The notes beneath the pieces were generated by a model. That model was not told the DNA's origin, did no database searches, and saw only the letters and a list, made by a program, of their open reading frames with translations. A program made the position numbers and the translations under genes. A stretch of DNA of 64,000 nt from Coriobacteriaceae bacterium EMTCatB1 (GTDB lineage Bacteria; Actinomycetota; Coriobacteriia; Anaerosomatales; Anaerosomataceae): the NCBI GenBank assembly GCA_001950395.1, contig BDLO01000001.1:533979-597978 (forward strand), read 5' to 3'. Position 1 is the stretch's first letter, and every line of letters begins with the position of its first letter. Positions 3,786 through 50,615 of this stretch are shown here, in pieces.

Positions 3786-3849
3786 GGTTGCTTCGGCAAC
3801 CCCCTTACCCCTGAGCCTCAAGGTGCCGGCCTTGGGGCTCCCCCTTTTT
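3786..3849 (+). ncRNA. Short two-hairpin RNA ending in an intrinsic terminator (attenuator leader or small RNA)
   Basis: Hairpin 1 is a perfect 6-bp stem with a TTCG loop (3786-3801). A C-rich linker follows. Hairpin 2 has an 11-bp stem with one GU pair, GAGCCTCAAGG against CCTTGGGGCTC (3813-3840), followed by CCCC and five T (3845-3849), a rho-independent terminator. Together with the promoter at 3751 this makes a complete 64-nt transcription unit. It may also end nuoN transcripts or control read-through into the FlgM-like gene. I do not recognise a riboswitch class in it. Confidence 0.5.
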
Positions 3850-3910
3850 CTGGGGTTTTCCCACCTTCTCTCTCAAGCGACGGCATCTCGATGCCGATAT
3901 ATCCCGCATC

Positions 3911-4168
3911 ATGATGATCTCCGACGAACAAGTGCGCCGCGCAGCAGAATACCTCCGGGCGCGCCCAGATCAGCAGGACTGCAGCGCACTTTCACCGTGT
4001 GTCGACGAGAGTCTCTTGGCGCGTGCCGTGCGTGCCGCGCTCTCAGCGCCCGAGATACGCATCGACCGCGTGCGACAGGCAGCGTACGTGGCCGACGGCT
4101 ACCTGCCAGATCCGGACACCGTCGCCGCGAAGTTGATCGGGCGGGTCATCTCCGACAGCATCCGGTGA
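3911..4168 (+). CDS. FlgM-like small protein (anti-sigma-28-like)
   Basis: An 85-residue protein. Its C-terminal half has the spacing of FlgM: a charged helix with RIDRVRQAAYVADGYLPD, then DTVAAKLIGRVI, matching the family pattern in which an R..V..LR segment is followed by a G-Y-x-V/P-D turn and a final A.KLL..L helix that binds sigma-28. The N-terminal half has no FlgM counterpart I can see. No flagellar gene or sigma factor lies nearby. The next clear gene encodes PilB, so it may act on another sigma factor or be a FlgM relative linked to pili. There is no clear ribosome-binding site; ATG 3914 is an alternative start. Family assignment is tentative. Confidence 0.55.
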   Translation: MMISDEQVRRAAEYLRARPDQQDCSALSPCVDESLLARAVRAALSAPEIRIDRVRQAAYVADGYLPDPDTVAAKLIGRVISDSIR

Positions 4169-4206
4169 CCGACCGCGGTCCCTGCTCGGTCGTGTCGCTC
4201 CTCCTC

Positions 4207-4215
4207 TGCTAGCAT
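4207..4215 (+). promoter_or_regulatory. Extended -10 promoter for the small membrane gene and pilB
   Basis: TGCTAGCAT fits the TGCTANNNT pattern seen at several other gene starts in this window. No good -35 is visible. It lies about 34 bases upstream of GTG 4249. Confidence 0.4.
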
Positions 4216-4248
4216 GGACGCTGAGGCGTTCTCGCGAAGGAGGCATAC

Positions 4249-4533
4249 GTGTCGAAACGGCTCGTGCGGCTCGGTCTCACCATCTGCATGGATCTGCTCG
4301 TGCTGGCGGCCATCGTTGCGACGGGCGGGCTGGTCATACGGTTCTTCGGAGCCTTGGCGTCGTCAACGGTAGGCGAGCTGCTGAGGCCAATCACGGACGC
4401 TGTGCGTCTTCCGCTCGGGCTCGGGGGTATCAAGACACCGTACGGCGGTGTGTTCGACCTGGATGCCGCGGCGACGGTCGCAGCGGCGCTGTTCGTCGAG
4501 TGGGTGCTCGCTGGCGTGCGTCGTCGCTCGTGA
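4249..4533 (+). CDS. Small membrane protein of unknown function
   Basis: 94 residues that I do not recognise. There is an N-terminal transmembrane segment (about residues 9-38), a short polar loop containing LPLGLGGIKTPYGGVFDLD, a second hydrophobic segment (about 72-90) and a basic RRRS tail. AAGGAGG at 4237-4243 sits five bases before GTG 4249. The gene is followed within 12 bases by pilB and is probably co-transcribed with it. A role near the pilus machinery is only an inference from position. Confidence 0.65.
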   Translation: MSKRLVRLGLTICMDLLVLAAIVATGGLVIRFFGALASSTVGELLRPITDAVRLPLGLGGIKTPYGGVFDLDAAATVAAALFVEWVLAGVRRRS

Positions 4534-30093: not shown

Positions 30094-30100
30094 ACGGCTG

Positions 30101-30218
30101 CTTTCTTCAGGGCGGGGTGCAAGTCCCCACCGGCGGTGACAGCCCGCGAACCCCGAGAGGGGCCGAACCGGTGAAATCCCGGTGCCGACGGTAAGAGTCC
30201 GGATGGGAGAAGGAAGGT
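30101..30218 (+). promoter_or_regulatory. FMN riboswitch (RFN element)
   Basis: The conserved blocks of the RFN aptamer are present in order: AGGGCGGGGTGCAAGTCCCC, ACCGGCGGTGACAGCCCGCGA, a variable arm, CCGGTGAAATCCCGGTGCCG, ACGGTAAGAGTCCGGATGGG and AGAAGGAA. The 5' TTTCTTC and 3' GAGAAGGA strands form P1. P1's 3' strand also holds the purine-rich ribosome-binding site of ribD, and there is no terminator between aptamer and gene. FMN binding should therefore block translation rather than transcription. Confidence 0.93.
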
Positions 30219-32056: not shown

Positions 32057-33289
32057 GTGGCTGCTCCGTTCGCGAGCATAGAAGAGGCGCTGGGCGACAT
32101 CCGCGCTGGCAAGATGGTGATTGTCGTCGACGACGAGGACCGCGAGAACGAAGGCGACTTCGTCATGGCGGCCGAGAAGGTCACGCCGGAAGCGATCAAC
32201 TTCATGGCGCAGCACGGTCGTGGCCTGATCTGCCTGCCTCTGACCGGAGAGCGCCTCGACGAGCTCAAGATCCCGCCGATGACGAACGTGAACACCTCGG
32301 CGCAGCAGACCGCGTTCCACGTCTCCATCGGAGCGAAGGGCCGCATCACGACGGGGATATCGGCGGCTGATCGCGCCGCGACCATCCTCGCGGCGATCGA
32401 CCCTGCAACGCGTCCAGAAGACATCTCCATGCCCGGCCACGTGTTCCCGCTCAGGGCACGGCCTGGCGGAGTGCTCGAGCGAGCCGGCCACACCGAGGCC
32501 GCAGTCGACCTCGCGCGGCTCGCGGGGCTGTATCCAGCGGGAGTCATCTGCGAGATCTTGAACCCGGACGGCACCATGGCTCGGCGCCCGCAGCTGGAAG
32601 AGGTCGCGCGGCGATTCGGGCTGAAGATGATCACCGTCGCCGACCTCATCCGGTACCGGCGGCGCACCGAGCGGCTCGTCGAGCGGATCGCGACCGTCCA
32701 CCTCCCCACGCGCTACGGAGATTTCGTCGCGTACGGCTACCGCTCGCTGGTGGACGACTCGACGCACGTGGCGCTGGTATGCGGCGAGGTCGCTGACCAG
32801 AAGGACGTCTTGGTCCGCGTCCACTCGGAGTGTCTCACCGGAGACGTGTTCCACTCGCTGCGGTGCGACTGCGGTGCCCAGCTCGAAGAGGCCATGCGCC
32901 GCATCCAGGAAGAGGGCCGGGGCGTGCTGCTGTACATCGTGGGCCACGAAGGAAGAGGCATCGGGCTCGCAGAGAAGCTTCGGGCGTACGAGCTTCAGGA
33001 ACGCGGCATGGACACGGTCGAGGCCAACGAGGCCCTCGGCTACCCGGCCGACTTGCGTGACTACGGCATCGGGGCGCAGATACTGGCCGATCTCGGCTTG
33101 TCGTCCATGCGCCTCATGACCAACAACCCGACGAAGATCGTCGGGTTGGAGGCCTACGGGTTGACGGTGACGGAGGCCGTGCCGCTGCAAGTCGGCTGCA
33201 CGCCCCACAACGTGCGGTATCTCCAGACGAAGAAGGACAAGATGTCGCACCGGCTCGACGTGCCGGTCGACGGGATGGAAGGGGAGTGA
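32057..33289 (+). CDS. ribBA: Bifunctional 3,4-dihydroxy-2-butanone 4-phosphate synthase / GTP cyclohydrolase II
   Basis: 410 residues. The N-terminal half is RibB, with [16 protein letters not shown], the metal/substrate site, and [16 protein letters not shown]. The C-terminal half is RibA, with [20 protein letters not shown] (zinc cysteines) and [10 protein letters not shown]. It supplies both starting branches of riboflavin synthesis. GTG 32057 follows AGGAGG by four bases; ATG 32030, overlapping ribE, is the alternative start. Confidence 0.95.
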
Positions 33290-45385: not shown

Positions 45386-47057
45386 TCTCCGGAGCCTCGC
45401 CGAGGTCGACGCGCAAGAGCGCGATCACCGCTTGGACCAGCTCGTCCGGACCGCTTTCGAGCCAGACCTCCGCTGGCCGCGCGTGGCGACGATACGCGTC
45501 TACGATGAACAGCTCTCGAAGCTGCCTGGCCGTGAGGTTGCGGGGATCCTCGGCCATCCTGTCCGGGGAGAACGCCCGACGAGCGGCCAGTGTGAGCTTG
45601 TCGACGAATCGGCGGGCATCGTCGTCCTCGAGGCGCCCGCGGACCACAGAGGCGACGCGGCCATGCCTGATGAGCAGCACCGTCGCTTCGTTATCGTGCC
45701 TTTCGACGATGGCCGAGCCGCGATGAGATGTCGCAGACCGCACGACGTCGAGTGCAGACACGCACCTGTCCAGCGCTTTCAGCGTGTCGCGGTACACGAT
45801 GGCGTCCTCGTAGCGCATGTCCATGGCAGCGCGTTCCCTGAGCGCCTGGAGCGTGGCACGGAAGCGCGCGTGGCCACCGTCGAACACGGACAAGGCGGCC
45901 GTCACGCGCGCCCCGTACTCGTCAGGCTCGATGGCGCCGATGCAGGGGCGTGGACAGGACGATGCGCTCCGGTGGACGCACTCCACAAGACAAGCAGCGC
46001 CGTTCAGACGACGTCCGCACATGCGCAACCCGAACTGCTCTTTGAGCGCCGTCACGACGCGACGGACAGCCCACACGTTCGTGAACGGACCGATCGCCGT
46101 GCCGCTCCGAGGGCGACGAGTCATCACGGTCAACGCGGGATATGCCTGTTTGGTGTCGACCCGGATGTACACCATGCGCCGGCCACGCTCGCAGTCGGCG
46201 TTGAACGGTGGCGCGTACCGCGCCTTGAGCCGGCTTTCCAGCAGCTGGGCATGCAGCGCCGTCGAGCACTTCAACGCACGAACCTTCGCTGTCGAGGCGA
46301 CCGCGCTTCCAGCGGAGTCGTCCGGCGACCTGTAGAAGAAGCTTCGCACCCTGGATCGGATGCGCCGCGCTCGAGCCACGTACAGCACACGGCCGCGCTC
46401 GTCCATAAGCGCGAAGACCCCAGGTCCGTCAGACAGGTCGGTCGTGAGCGCCAGCTTCCGAGCCAGGTCGCCGCGAGCGGGAAGCCCGCAGATGCGAGCG
46501 ACGTCCGCCGCGTCCGTCAGCCCCATGCTCGTGAGCTCGCCCAGCATCGCGGAGAAGACCTCAGCGGTCGCGAGGGCATCCGCCAGAGCGCGGTGCGTCG
46601 GGGCGCCCGACGTGCCGTACCGTGCGGACACGTCACGGAGGTTGTGACGGCGCTCCGTCGGATGCAAGCGCCGCGAGAGGATCAGCGTGTCCAAGACGGG
46701 ACGCGGGATGGGCTCGCATCCGGTGCGCTCCGACTCGTAGTCCAGGAACCCCATGTCAAAGCGATGGTTGTGCGCCACGAGCACCGCGCCCTGCGCGAAC
46801 GCCCTGAACGCGCACACGGCCTCCGCGACTGACGGAGCGTCGCGCACCATGTCATCCGTGATCCCAGTCAACTCGACGATGGCTGGCGGGATCGGAGAGG
46901 AAGGGCGAACGAGAGTCTCGAAGTACCCGACGATCGCGCCCTTGCTTACCCGCACTGCGCCGATCTCGATGATGGAGTCGTGCCCCGGGACGGGTCCCGT
47001 GGTCTCGATGTCGACGGTCACGAAGTCGCCGTCGGTGAGTGTCGTCGCGCCTAGCAT
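45333..47057 (-). CDS. DEDDh exonuclease / UvrC-like (Cho-like) nuclease fusion
   Basis: 574 residues. N-terminal DnaQ-type exonuclease: D16/E18 in FVTVDIETTG, HNHRFDMGFLD, and the late HRALADALAT. From about residue 190 comes a GIY-YIG domain like UvrC, GPGVFALMDERGRVLYVARA, with the glutamate in LLESRLKARY. Later comes a UVR-like helix pair (MRYEDAIVYRDTLKALD). The first GIY tyrosine is Phe here. Such fusions are typical of actinobacteria and act in repair. ATG 47057 is chosen because the extended -10 at 47092-47084 leaves a 20-base leader; an upstream ATG at 47138 would precede that promoter. Confidence 0.87.
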   Translation of the reverse strand: MLGATTLTDGDFVTVDIETTGPVPGHDSIIEIGAVRVSKGAIVGYFETLVRPSSPIPPAIVELTGITDDMVRDAPSVAEAVCAFRAFAQGAVLVAHNHRFDMGFLDYESERTGCEPIPRPVLDTLILSRRLHPTERRHNLRDVSARYGTSGAPTHRALADALATAEVFSAMLGELTSMGLTDAADVARICGLPARGDLARKLALTTDLSDGPGVFALMDERGRVLYVARARRIRSRVRSFFYRSPDDSAGSAVASTAKVRALKCSTALHAQLLESRLKARYAPPFNADCERGRRMVYIRVDTKQAYPALTVMTRRPRSGTAIGPFTNVWAVRRVVTALKEQFGLRMCGRRLNGAACLVECVHRSASSCPRPCIGAIEPDEYGARVTAALSVFDGGHARFRATLQALRERAAMDMRYEDAIVYRDTLKALDRCVSALDVVRSATSHRGSAIVERHDNEATVLLIRHGRVASVVRGRLEDDDARRFVDKLTLAARRAFSPDRMAEDPRNLTARQLRELFIVDAYRRHARPAEVWLESGPDELVQAVIALLRVDLGEAPEISRREAPSIAPHSGRPS

Positions 47058-47083
47058 CGAACCTGCCGTGTCGTGGTGAGAGA

Positions 47084-47092
47084 ATCCTAGCA
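47084..47092 (-). promoter_or_regulatory. Extended -10 promoter of the DnaQ-UvrC gene
   Basis: Minus strand TGCTAGGAT, same TGCTANNNT form as at other genes in the window, about 27 bases before ATG 47057. It decides the start chosen for that gene. Confidence 0.45.
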
Positions 47093-47184
47093 CAACGGCT
47101 GCTGTCGTGTTGTCCGTCACAGTCTGCCGGCGTAGCATTGGTGTAGGATTGCTCAGGAGTGCCCGGCGTCGTCAGGAGCATGAG

Positions 47185-48207
47185 ATGAGACTGGTGATCA
47201 TCGGCGTCGACCCAGCGACGGGAGCCGCCACTGCAATCGTCGAGTCGGTCTTCTCCAGCCGGGAGGAGGCGTTGTCTGCTCTAGCCAGCGCTGCGTCGTC
47301 GGAGGAAACGTGGCTGGAAGGATACGACCTTCACCTGGTCGACCTCGACAGCGCAACGCCGGTCCTGCTGCTCCGCATACCCTCGGTGGCGCTTCCCGCG
47401 GAACCGGCCATCGCCAGCGAACCGAGCGAGCACGACGCTGGAATGCAGCCCGAAGAGCAGGGCGTGCCTGCCGTCGTGAGCGAGCCGGAGCAACCGCTCG
47501 GCGAACCCGATCTCACGTACGTCGAAACTGCGGTCACGTCCGCAGCGCAGCTGCCAGAGCCACTGGCTGCAGAGGCCTCTCCAGCGGAGGCGGTCCTCGA
47601 CGAGGATGCCTTCGCGGTGCCTTCGGAGGCAGCGCCCGTCGAAGCGGCGAGCAGCGTCGACGACTTGGCTGCCGCGCTGGCCTCGTTCGAGCCCGCGCCC
47701 GCGATCGAGCCGGGACCGACGACGCCGGAAGCAGAGGAGTCGGAGCCCTCAGACGACGCCTTGCTCGAGGCGCTCAGGCGCGCGGCGGACACCCTCGTGC
47801 AGCAAGGCATCGAAGTGCCCGAGCCTCCGGCCGTCGAGACAGAGACCGCGGCAGCCGACCTCGAGCCCATCGTGGTGGAGACCGAGCCGCTCGCGACGGC
47901 AGAGCCGGTTCCGGATGTCCCCGTCTCTGAGCCCCTTGGGGTCGTCGAGGCAGAGCCGGTTGTCAGCGCCGAGGCCCAGCCGCCGGTCGACCTCGAACCG
48001 GTGCGTCCGGTCATCATGGGCGAGTACCCTGAGGAGATCTCGGCAGACGAGCCCACGCAGGTCGCCGAGACGAAACCATACGAGCCCTCTGGCGAGCTCG
48101 AGATCGGGGCGTACACCTGCAAGGACTGCGTGTACTTCAGCACCTGTCCCAAGGCAGGGGAGAGCACACCGGCGGAGTGCGGCACGTTCCAGTGGCGTTC
48201 CTTCTGA
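47185..48207 (+). CDS. Unknown protein: small N-terminal domain, long acidic Pro/Ala/Glu linker, C-terminal cysteine motif
   Basis: 340 residues, not recognised. About 75 residues at the N-terminus look globular (RLVIIGVDPATGAATAIVES, then a helix and LHLVDLDSATPVLLLRIP). Residues 80-305 are a low-complexity linker full of Pro, Ala, Glu and Val. The C-terminus is ordered again: CKDCVYFSTCPKAGE followed by AECGTF, a CX2CX5CX10C pattern that could bind zinc or an Fe-S cluster. There is no signal peptide or membrane helix. AGGAG lies seven bases before ATG 47185. It is divergent from the DnaQ-UvrC gene. Confidence 0.75.
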   Translation: MRLVIIGVDPATGAATAIVESVFSSREEALSALASAASSEETWLEGYDLHLVDLDSATPVLLLRIPSVALPAEPAIASEPSEHDAGMQPEEQGVPAVVSEPEQPLGEPDLTYVETAVTSAAQLPEPLAAEASPAEAVLDEDAFAVPSEAAPVEAASSVDDLAAALASFEPAPAIEPGPTTPEAEESEPSDDALLEALRRAADTLVQQGIEVPEPPAVETETAAADLEPIVVETEPLATAEPVPDVPVSEPLGVVEAEPVVSAEAQPPVDLEPVRPVIMGEYPEEISADEPTQVAETKPYEPSGELEIGAYTCKDCVYFSTCPKAGESTPAECGTFQWRSF

Positions 48208-48221
48208 GCCACAAAATATCG

Positions 48222-48262
48222 TTGGCACAGATGGCCCGGCTACAATATACTGTAGCCGGGCC
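48222..48262 (+). promoter_or_regulatory. Promoter centred in a perfect 30-bp palindrome (putative operator) upstream of the chelatase gene
   Basis: TTGGCA (48222-48227), 18-base spacer, TATACT (48246-48251). The arms GGCCCGGCTACA (48233-48244) and TGTAGCCGGGCC (48251-48262) are perfect inverted repeats around ATATAC, so the -10 lies at the centre of the dyad. It may be a repressor site. As RNA it would also be a 12-bp hairpin able to end the upstream transcript, though only a weak T-rich stretch follows. Confidence 0.6.
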
Positions 48263-48287
48263 GTTCTCTTGACGGGAGAAGCACGAC

Positions 48288-50258
48288 GTGTCGCGGAAGC
48301 GATTCCCCTTCTCGGCCATCGTTGGGCAGGAGGCGCTGAAGACGGCGCTCGTGATCAACGCCGTCGACCCGAGGATCGGCGGCGTGCTGATCAGGGGCCA
48401 CAAGGGCACCGCCAAGTCCACGGCTGTCCGCGCGCTCGCTTCCGTGCTCCCGCCCATCGAGGTCGTCGACGGATGCCGGTACGGTTGCGACCCGAACGAC
48501 ATCTCCTCTCTGTGCTCCGAATGTCTCGCCCGGGCGAAGGACGGACCGCTCCCTCGAGCCAGACGCCCAGTGCGAGTCGTGGACCTTCCCGTCTCCGCCA
48601 CTGAAGACCGCCTCGTCGGCACGCTCGACATCGAGCACGCGCTCAAACACGGCGAGCGCGCGTTCGAGCCGGGGCTGCTCGCTGAGGCGAACCGTGGCAT
48701 CCTCTACGTCGACGAGGTCAACCTCCTCGACGACCACCTCGTCGACGCACTCTTGGACGCCGCAGCCAGCGGCGTGAACGTCGTCGAACGCGAGGGAGTG
48801 CGGCACGAGCATCCTGCACGGTTCATCCTGGTCGGCACCATGAACCCAGAAGAAGGGGAGCTGCGTCCCCAGCTGCTCGATCGCTTCGGGCTGTGCGTCG
48901 ATGTCGAGACGATCGCCGATCCAGCGCAGCGCGTCGAAGTCATGCGGCGGCGGCGCGCTTTCGAGGACGATCCGGCGTCCTTTGCACGCGAGTGGGCGTC
49001 AGCCGACGATGCGCTTCAGCGCTCCATCATCGAGGCCAGGCGGCTCCTCGACGACGTCGAGTTGGACGACGACCTCCTGTTCCTGATCGCCTCGATCTGC
49101 GCCTCCTTGGGCGTGGAAGGCCATCGAGCCGATCTCGTCATGGCCAGAGCAGCCACCGCCTTCGCGCTGATATCCGGCGATCACGAGGTGCGCCCAGCGC
49201 ACGTGAAGGCCGTCGCTCCGCTGGTTCTCGCGCATCGGATGCGGAAGACGCCGTTCGAAGATCGAGAGCACCCAGGCGACCGACTGCAGCAGGCGCTTGC
49301 GCAGGCCGACGGCCACGAGCAGCCCGACAACGACGTGCGCCAGCTCGTCCCGGCTGAAGCCGGTTCGGCGTCGGAGCCGGAGCGCGAACGCGCTGCGCGC
49401 GTCCGGCTTCGTGAGGCGGGCGCGCCTGACGGAGACGCGCCGCTGCTCCACCTCGACGAGGACCTTGACCGCATCCGGCGGTCCGTGGCCGGACGCACAC
49501 AGAGGAGCACGTCGCACGACGGCACCGGCAGGTACACCAGGTCCGAGCCGGTTCGGCCCGGGTCCCGCATCGACATCGCCTTCGATGCGACGATCCGCGC
49601 GGCGGCCTCCCATCAGTCCGAGCGCGAGGGGGAGCTCGCTATCAAGCTCGAGCCGTCCGACCTCCGCAACAAAATCCGCACGCGGCGTGTCGGCGCTTCC
49701 ATCGTCTTTTGCGTCGATGCCAGCGGATCCATGGGCGCATCGAACCGCATGGAGGCCGCCAAGGCCGCCGTGCTCGAGCTCCTCGTCGGCGCCTACCAGC
49801 GCAGGGACAGGGTGGGGCTGGTCGCGTTCCGCGGAGAGGGGGCTGATGTCCTGCTCGCGCCCACAGCAAGCGTCGAGCTCGCACAGCTCAAGCTTCGATC
49901 CCTGCCGGTCGGAGGAGCTACTCCGCTCGCTCACGGCCTCATCCGCTCGCTCGAGGTCCTCGAGTCGGAGCGGAAGCGGAACCACGAGGTGGTGCCGTGG
50001 CTCGTCTTGGTGACCGACGGTCGCGCCAACGTCGGAGTGAACGGCGGCCTCGGGTCTGAGGACGCCCGGGCGGCGGCCCAGCAGATCCGTGAGCGCGACA
50101 TCCGCACGATCGTGATCGACACCACCGCCGTGCCTGGCGGGGGATCGGCCGCGCGTGAGATCGCTCGCGTCGCCGGCGCTGACTACGTGCGGCTCACCAC
50201 GGTCGACAGCGACTCGCTCCTCGGGATCGTGAAGACCCGAGTGGGGCTCGCCGGCTAG
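48288..50258 (+). CDS. Mg/Co-chelatase-type protein, ChlI-ChlD fusion
   Basis: 656 residues. AAA+ domain first: P-loop GHKGTAKST, a cysteine cluster (CRYGCDP...CSEC) typical of putative cobaltochelatase partners, and Walker [14 protein letters not shown]. An acidic/basic linker follows (about 340-440), then a VWA domain from about 460 with MIDAS motif [16 protein letters not shown] and GGATPL. Such fusions drive metal insertion with a large CobN/ChlH subunit, which is not in the window. The cob genes at 15-18 kb make cobalt chelation a reasonable guess. GTG 48288 has GGGAGAAG seven bases upstream. Confidence 0.88.
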
Positions 50259-50273
50259 CCAGGACAGGAGCGC

Positions 50274-50615
50274 GAGGAGCGGGCCTGTAAGCCGGATTCT
50301 GTCGAGGACGGCCATCTATCTGGGACCGCCGTTGCCGACGGCCTCGAGCGGGCATACCCGAGCGACGGCCGGGCCAGCCTTGACCGCTCCTATTCGCCCT
50401 TGCTCCGGGTGGGGTTTGCCAAGCCGCCACGTCACCGTGACGCTGGTGCGCTCTTGCCGCACCGTTTCAGCTTTTCTCCCGCGTGCGCGGGGGAGTTTTC
50501 TTTTCTGTGGCACTTTCCGTCGGGTCGCCCCGCCAGGCTGTTAGCCTGCACCCTGCCCTGTGGAGTCCGGACTTTCCTCACGCGTGAACGCGCGCGGCCG
50601 TCTAGCCCGCTCCTC
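50274..50615 (-). ncRNA. rnpB: RNase P RNA, bacterial type A
   Basis: Minus-strand RNA of about 342 nt. The outer helix is formed by GAGGAGCGGGC at the 5' end (50615-50605) and GCCCGCTCCTC at the 3' end. Conserved parts are seen in order: GAGGAAAGTCCGGACTCC, CAGGGCAGGGTGC, ...GGCTAACAGCCTGGCGGGGCGACC..., CGGAAAGTGCCACAGAAAA, and near the 3' end ACAGAATCCGGCTTACAGG. It is the catalytic RNA for tRNA 5' maturation. Its promoter lies just upstream, and the two tRNA genes are directly before it on the same strand. Confidence 0.96.

Follow-up and report, generated by a model that had tools for sequence, protein, structure and literature searches.

The regulator NrdR senses ATP and dATP, as described in the passages of PMC9110341 on which we draw, which also describe residues D15, R17 and R26-R29 for DNA binding and place the key G-C pairs of the S. 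coelicolor NrdR-DNA complex at positions 9/18 and 40/49. The NrdR proteins tested bind boxes with spacers of 14-17 bp and also of 24-27 bp, according to the relevant part of PMC12051234. A known NrdR target that is not a reductase gene is topA of Pseudomonas aeruginosa (passages of PMC4409342). As to chelatase-like genes, a 2022 paper calls unknown what chlD does in genomes that lack a large subunit, and in the passages concerned reads such genes as living fossils (PMC9227772). None of the matches listed in the open-access literature describes NrdR as controlling a chelatase gene; in PMC7662524, NrdR and chelatase appear only as unrelated table rows.

We have analyzed here a 64,000-nucleotide stretch of the genome of Coriobacteriaceae bacterium EMTCatB1 (the window), in which two NrdR-like boxes overlie the promoter of a gene for a ChlID-like protein. 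The genome encodes an NrdR in which the Zn-ribbon and ATP-cone are present and D15, R17 and R26-R29 are kept. We think it likely, from the sequence comparisons set out below, that a tandem NrdR operator over the -35 and -10 elements represses this orphan ChlID gene, and that the promoter sits within the terminator of the upstream gene.

Layout of the promoter and its two palindromes

The dyad that drew attention to this region lies between the TGA stop codon (48205-48207) of the upstream gene and the GTG start codon (48288) of the chelatase-like gene. The features of the region are as follows.

47107..48207, + strand: co-directional upstream gene, which the hairpin would terminate (open reading frame)
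48209..48224, + strand: NrdR-like box 1, CCACAAAATATCGTTG, ending in the -35; matrix score 3.6, single-box rank 22, C at position 4 and G at position 13
48222..48227, + strand: -35 hexamer TTGGCA (promoter scan, spacer 18)
48233..48262, + strand: dyad or RNA stem-loop with 12-bp arms, a hairpin that probably terminates the upstream gene (sequence, covariation with control, fold)
48240..48255, + strand: NrdR-like box 2, CTACAATATACTGTAG, the 16-bp core of the dyad, holding the -10; matrix score 9.5
48246..48251, + strand: -10 hexamer TATACT, within box 2 (promoter scan)
48263..48271, + strand: T-rich stretch 3' of the stem, GTTCTCTTG; T excess across orthologues
48274..48279, + strand: likely ribosome-binding site GGGAGA, 8 nt ahead of the GTG start (sequence)
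48288..50258, + strand: orphan ChlID-like AAA+/VWA protein of 656 aa, the putative regulated gene (Pfam Mg_chelatase, AAA_lid_2, VWA_2)

The first-pass annotation had reported a perfect dyad with 12-base arms, and this is confirmed: the arms GGCCCGGCTACA (48233-48244) and TGTAGCCGGGCC (48251-48262) are perfect complements flanking ATATAC. The DNA in the hairpin loop is the centre of box 2, and the 30-mer folds as RNA with -25.2 kcal/mol (z -6.7). A perfect dyad with arms of at least 12 and a loop of 3-10 occurs in 2 of 20 order-1 Markov windows, and a chance origin of the bare dyad is only moderately unlikely. The dyad is overlapped by a sigma-70-like promoter, TTGGCA-18-TATACT (48222-48251), which agrees at 10/12 positions and is the sole match in a promoter scan of 47000-49500 (shuffle mean 0.0). 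Its -10 had been described as beginning at the centre of the dyad; TATACT does span the centre, but it starts two bases earlier.

The distance from the start of box 1 to the start of box 2 is exactly 31 bp, leaving a spacer of 15 bp, and the C and G conserved at positions 4 and 13 of each box fall at 48212 and 48221 in box 1 and at 48243 and 48252 in box 2.

Neither Pfam nor NCBIfam gives a match for the product of the upstream gene at E 0.001. By eye, the end of this protein, CxDCVYxxTCPK...CGxFQW, is seen again directly 5' of ChlID in many members of the order, even in some that have no dyad. Just downstream of the ChlID gene lies an RNase P RNA of the bacterial class A (50272-50613, - strand), adjoined by tRNA-Glu, tRNA-Gln and a glutamyl-tRNA synthetase gene; elsewhere in the window, an FMN riboswitch at 30099-30218 (+ strand) scores over its gathering threshold.

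The tandem boxes in the genome, the order and the phylum

The scoring matrix was trained only on the nrdJ and nrdR promoters of the order, with the chelatase promoters left out of training. Of 40 nrd loci 35 were kept, the remaining five having no pair above the training cut-off; the NrdR consensus by which training sites were picked was checked against the geometry given in the passages of PMC9110341. When the window is scanned at 31 bp the chelatase pair ranks first with 13.1 bits (runner-up -1.7), and it is still first when spacings of 30-33 bp are allowed (13.1 versus 10.7). The runner-up in the latter scan, a pair at 33205-33250 spaced at 30 bp, is probably a chance occurrence. Box 2 is the best single box in the window by the narrowest of leads (9.5, with the next at 9.4) and box 1 is only 22nd, so it is the pair that carries the signal. 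The training pairs score 27.9-39.8, and by this measure the chelatase site is clearly weaker, its boxes not matching the quality of those at the nrd promoters. Box 2 may score low because its sequence has to accommodate the -10 as well, and binding would presumably be weaker than at nrdJ.

The genome's own operators have the form GCCCAAGATATTGGGC-N15-GCGCTAGATGTTGTAT at nrdJ and ACGCAATATGTTGTGT-N15-GGCCTAGATGTGGGGG at nrdR. A search of the 1.84-Mb genome with the tandem core CWANATNTWG-N21-CWANATNTWG, allowing up to 2 mismatches, returns just three matches, at nrdJ (943512), nrdR (685412) and the chelatase promoter (582190), and none for the reversed control. The genome's two related tandem sites are thus those of nrdJ and nrdR and do not stand near cob or hem genes, where the first-pass annotation had proposed to look for the half-site. 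The repressor site that it had placed over the -10 gains support; core and upstream box match NrdR operators. The same three tandem-core sites are found in three other genomes (G001, G002 and G010). Across the 27 genomes scanned the chelatase site passes in 10, in part because the pattern fixes the distance at 31 bp, and the reversed pattern also has matches in some genomes (3 in G008 and 6 in G032, for example). One further genome (G013, locus L243) has an extra NrdR-like tandem pair at C16:55774-55814, beside ORFs with no assigned function, which may be a regulon member or a chance match.

Conservation of the site was followed in 61 genomes of the order, which gave 55 ChlID matches. The 47 orthologous genes with usable upstream DNA were kept; those left out are the G003 orthologue (cut at its start), partial matches in G019 (C15), G026 and G036, and two additional ChlID copies in each of G016 and G035, which lie on the CobN contigs of these genomes and of which one each was examined and has no NrdR pair. 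The earlier annotation had asked whether the dyad is unique and not conserved: the 30-mer does occur only once in the genome, even with up to 3 mismatches allowed, but the core is kept in the order, the pattern CT[A/C]CnnTATAnTGT[A/G][G/C], which itself requires TATAnT, being found upstream of 39/47 orthologues. The other eight (families f2, f6, f12 and f15) are without the element, and scans of their loci gave no strong pair; in several of them, judged by eye, the stop codon of the upstream gene is near the ChlID start.

The second palindrome, upstream of box 2, is likewise conserved in the order. When offsets of 17-59 bp from box 2 are scanned, an upstream box scores above zero at 31 bp in 22 of the 39 sites and at 32 bp in 12, with the only other positive offsets at 30 (2 cases) and 50 (1 case). 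At 31 or 32 bp, 34/39 sites score at least 9.1 and five are weak (-2.3 to 5.6). The spacer is often 16 bp in sister families, and the spacings at the chelatase gene and at nrdJ differ in G006, G029, G030 and G032. At positions 5, 6 or 11, box 2 does not follow the NrdR consensus in many orthologues, as a -10 would require.

We then turn to the phylum, for which 158 Actinomycetota genomes were drawn evenly; 41 have a ChlID gene at E 1e-100 and 35 have CobN. With G000 (the genome of the window) and G001 left out, the test comprised 12 genes from CobN-less and 27 from CobN-containing genomes. In line with a prediction set down before scanning, a pair scoring at least 15 lies upstream of ChlID in 9/12 CobN-less and 0/27 CobN-containing genomes (Fisher p 1e-6, the 12 genes stemming from five families and so not being fully independent). 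The 12 scores are 37.2, 35.3, 33.6, 32.7, 32.7, 30.1, 29.6, 21.0, 15.4, 8.2, 7.1 and -4.1. Seven of these genes, at 29.6-37.2, thus reach the range of the nrd training pairs, and three are doubtful, namely those at 8.2 and 7.1 (shuffle maxima 7.7 and 4.6) and that at -4.1. The best ChlID upstream region in the 27 CobN-containing genomes scores 3.3. Because ChlID often stands behind CobN, so that the operon promoter could lie there, the regions upstream of CobN in these 27 genomes were scanned as a control and gave no clear pair (best 1.7). The scans covered 700 nt per ChlID; in G131, G203, G153 and G098 the match begins near residue 96, which leaves less reach past the gene start. The distance from the end of the pair to the matched start is 26-107 nt in the nine clear cases. 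Several sites, viewed by eye, have a -35 at the end of box 1 and TATATT within box 2, an arrangement like that in the window.

In a tree of 38 ChlID proteins the orphans of the window's order fall into one group and the remaining orphans into another (two label changes), and a single origin of orphan ChlIDs appears in 34% of bootstrap trees. In a wider search beyond Actinomycetota, a strong pair was found at 3 of the 79 loci that had sufficient upstream sequence (80 kept of 579), all three in Actinomycetota (L136, L151 and L155) and identical to G017, G103 and G188, hence not independent of the genome sample. CobN is present in the flanks of 45 of the 80 loci, none of which has a pair scoring at least 10; the other 35 are weakly classed, no CobN having been found in flanks of at most 6 kb with partial CobN queries.

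The ChlID-like gene and the outer arms of the dyad

The protein encoded at 48288-50258 is a ChlI-like AAA+ module fused to a VWA module, and has the Walker A, Walker B and MIDAS motifs. It matches TIGR02442, the NCBIfam model for a putative cobaltochelatase, with 755.3 bits, under the cut-off of 779.45. CobN/ChlH (PF02514) has no match in G000 and was found in 3/61 genomes of the order (G016, G028 and G035), and CbiC (PF02570), the sole corrin-pathway marker searched, has no match in G000 and is found in 2/61. With no CobN or CbiC match, the 'chelatase' is left without a visible corrin pathway to serve. For these reasons and the TIGR02442 score we rejected the assignment as a B12-pathway cobaltochelatase, and the gene is probably not one. 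The window-type orthologues of the three CobN-bearing genomes of the order score 21.9 (G028), 23.7 (G035) and -2.3 (G016), and the strong pairs in the former two indicate that the presence of CobN does not exclude the site.

The genome's nrdJ codes for a B12-dependent ribonucleotide reductase (NF006417, above cut-off), and the ChlID-like protein looks like an orphan ChlID in an apparent B12 user that lacks corrin synthesis, as judged from two markers. Likely control in common with nrdJ suggests that the ChlID gene works in DNA-precursor supply rather than in the making of vitamin B12, and a part for its product in the assembly, loading or reactivation of the B12-dependent reductase merits testing. 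Such a role cannot be strictly required everywhere, since one 96%-complete genome (G037) has nrdJ and no ChlID match at E 1e-60. At one locus (L067), nrdJ is closely preceded on its own strand by 5S and 23S rRNA genes, at 3795-4410 (- strand).

The MIDAS motif reads DASAS in all 12 CobN-less ChlIDs of other families (L288-L299), and also in a protein from Dormibacterota (L154). It reads DASGS in the six proteins checked from the window's order, and among eight CobN-linked proteins of the phylum it reads DASGS in six and DASSS in one, with no match in the last. DASAS is a possible mark of a separate ChlID subfamily.

The outer arms of the dyad behave differently from its core. In the seven positions on either side of the 16-bp core, 204/217 cells are paired among 31 distinct sequences (183 Watson-Crick and 21 G-T), whereas re-dealt arms give a mean of 162.5 and a maximum of 179 (5000 shuffles, relatedness uncontrolled). 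The sequences vary while the pairing stays, which is stem-like. At the same outer positions of 70 nrdJ and nrdR boxes only 35% are paired, so NrdR binding does not require long arms; within the order, too, the boxes of G030 and G038 have poor outer arms, and pairs in other families occur without long arms. G-T pairs outnumber A-C cells by 21 to 6, which favors an RNA of the + strand, with p of only 0.08 when compared to the shuffle ratio.

A stable G+C-rich stem-loop, as expected of a terminator, does lie downstream of the upstream gene, and it is followed by an excess of T: at positions 8-15 past the core T makes up 43% in the 39 orthologues versus 19% in 250-nt upstreams. Five or more T among the 8 nucleotides after the stem are found in 11/39 orthologues, and the site of the window misses the T-run rule of the terminator scanner. 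Transcription from the -10 should begin inside the right arm, in which case the whole stem would be carried only by the RNA of the upstream gene. The arms covary as a stem, have T-rich sequence after them and are not seen at nrd boxes, which makes termination of the upstream gene their probable function; a terminator or insulator of that gene is the simplest reading of them. The suggestion in the first-pass annotation that the dyad might terminate the upstream gene as RNA is thereby supported, if less firmly than the repressor. The tail in the window is not a strong T run.

Proposed regulation, rival readings and known systems

How far can the site be explained without NrdR? A terminator and a promoter, with the -10 in the loop by chance and no repressor involved, would account for covarying arms, T-rich tail, strong fold and co-directional upstream gene. 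This reading leaves unexplained the upstream palindrome at 31/32 bp, the match to the nrd sites and the pairs of other families that have no long arms, and within the order, too, G030 and G038 have boxes with poor outer arms; we regard it as improbable. A different dimeric repressor, sensing a metal, a tetrapyrrole or cobalamin, was in part the proposal of the first-pass annotation, and a palindrome over the -10 ahead of a chelatase-like gene is a usual spot for one. Such a repressor would require a second box 31/32 bp away in the register of NrdR, while the related tandem sites of the genome are those of nrdJ and nrdR and no CobN or CbiC match is found. The metal or tetrapyrrole signal finds no support, the boxes matching those of NrdR, a sensor of ATP and dATP in the passages of PMC9110341. 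The genome-wide half-site search that had been proposed likewise speaks against it: the exact half-site occurs nowhere in the genome except in the dyad's own two arms, and with at most 1 mismatch it occurs at 14 places (both arms included), fewer than the 34 of the reversed control. In the window, too, the half-site is not enriched (7 places at up to 2 mismatches, with 6.1 expected). We rejected a metal or tetrapyrrole repressor on this evidence, and consider a repressor of this general kind very improbable.

Control at the level of RNA, with the hairpin as a riboswitch or stability element in ChlID's own 5' leader, is the least probable of the readings that we weighed. A strong stem does lie close to the start codon, but the inferred transcription start is ~7 nt past the -10, in the right arm, so that the gene's own transcript would be without the left arm. 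Its leader has no fold stability beyond that of shuffled sequences (z +1.87), and no Rfam family matches at the site, for which reason a riboswitch or other known RNA was rejected; a weak Glutamine-II match nearby (49068-49129) is below the gathering score.

The tandem NrdR operator would work as follows. When dATP is plentiful, an NrdR tetramer holding dATP and ATP would bind both boxes and kink the DNA, and the bound protein would keep RNA polymerase away from the ChlID promoter; when dATP drops, expression of ChlID would set in along with that of nrdJ and nrdR. The long arms around box 2 are an addition of this order: RNA reading through from the upstream gene would form the stem-loop, most likely terminating or insulating that transcript, which would leave the ChlID gene to answer to its own promoter.

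As to what the protein does, we suggest only tentatively, and with considerable doubt, that the ChlID of CobN-less genomes is an NrdR-controlled AAA+/VWA machine that loads, assembles or reactivates the B12-dependent reductase or its cofactor. If so, a ChlID machine for the reductase would be the missing function of the 'orphan' chlD genes. A conserved candidate NrdR operator stands before orphan chlD in at least several families of Actinomycetota; it points to the supply of DNA precursors, with NrdJ as a possible partner. If the proposed control is real, the NrdR regulon would extend past the reductases and topA, and the locus would be an example of a promoter and operator housed in the loop of a terminator.

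Set against described systems, the gene is closest in build to CobNST and its ChlID substitutes (TIGR02442), which have the same fusion of a ChlI-like AAA+ part with a VWA/MIDAS part; it differs in that its genome has no CobN or CbiC match. Like the orphan chlD genes of PMC9227772, it stands without a chlorophyll or B12 pathway; the passages of that paper on which we draw mention no regulator for them, whereas the gene of the window has a candidate NrdR operator. The viral cobST clusters described in part of PMC8651126 resemble it in having AAA+ and VWA parts without CobN and in being discussed under nucleotide biosynthesis, although they are viral, consist of two genes and are taken in that paper to use the CobN of their host. 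Like the putative target in the window, topA of P. aeruginosa is a case in which NrdR acts outside the nrd set, but topA carries only one box, at which NrdR activates it (passages of PMC4409342), whereas the tandem pair over the promoter in the window suggests repression.

In its operator the site is most like those of the nrd genes. The S. coelicolor nrdRJ operators have the same C4/G13 geometry and the same 31-bp distance as the boxes of the window (passages of PMC9110341), and nrdRJ and nrd operators in general share with it a pair of 16-bp palindromes spaced by about three helical turns, and the overlap with a promoter (passages of PMC9110341 and PMC12051234). Unlike them, the site in the window has as its target a gene that is not a ribonucleotide reductase gene, both of its boxes are weaker, and its box 2, which lies in the loop of a hairpin resembling a terminator, is merged with the -10.
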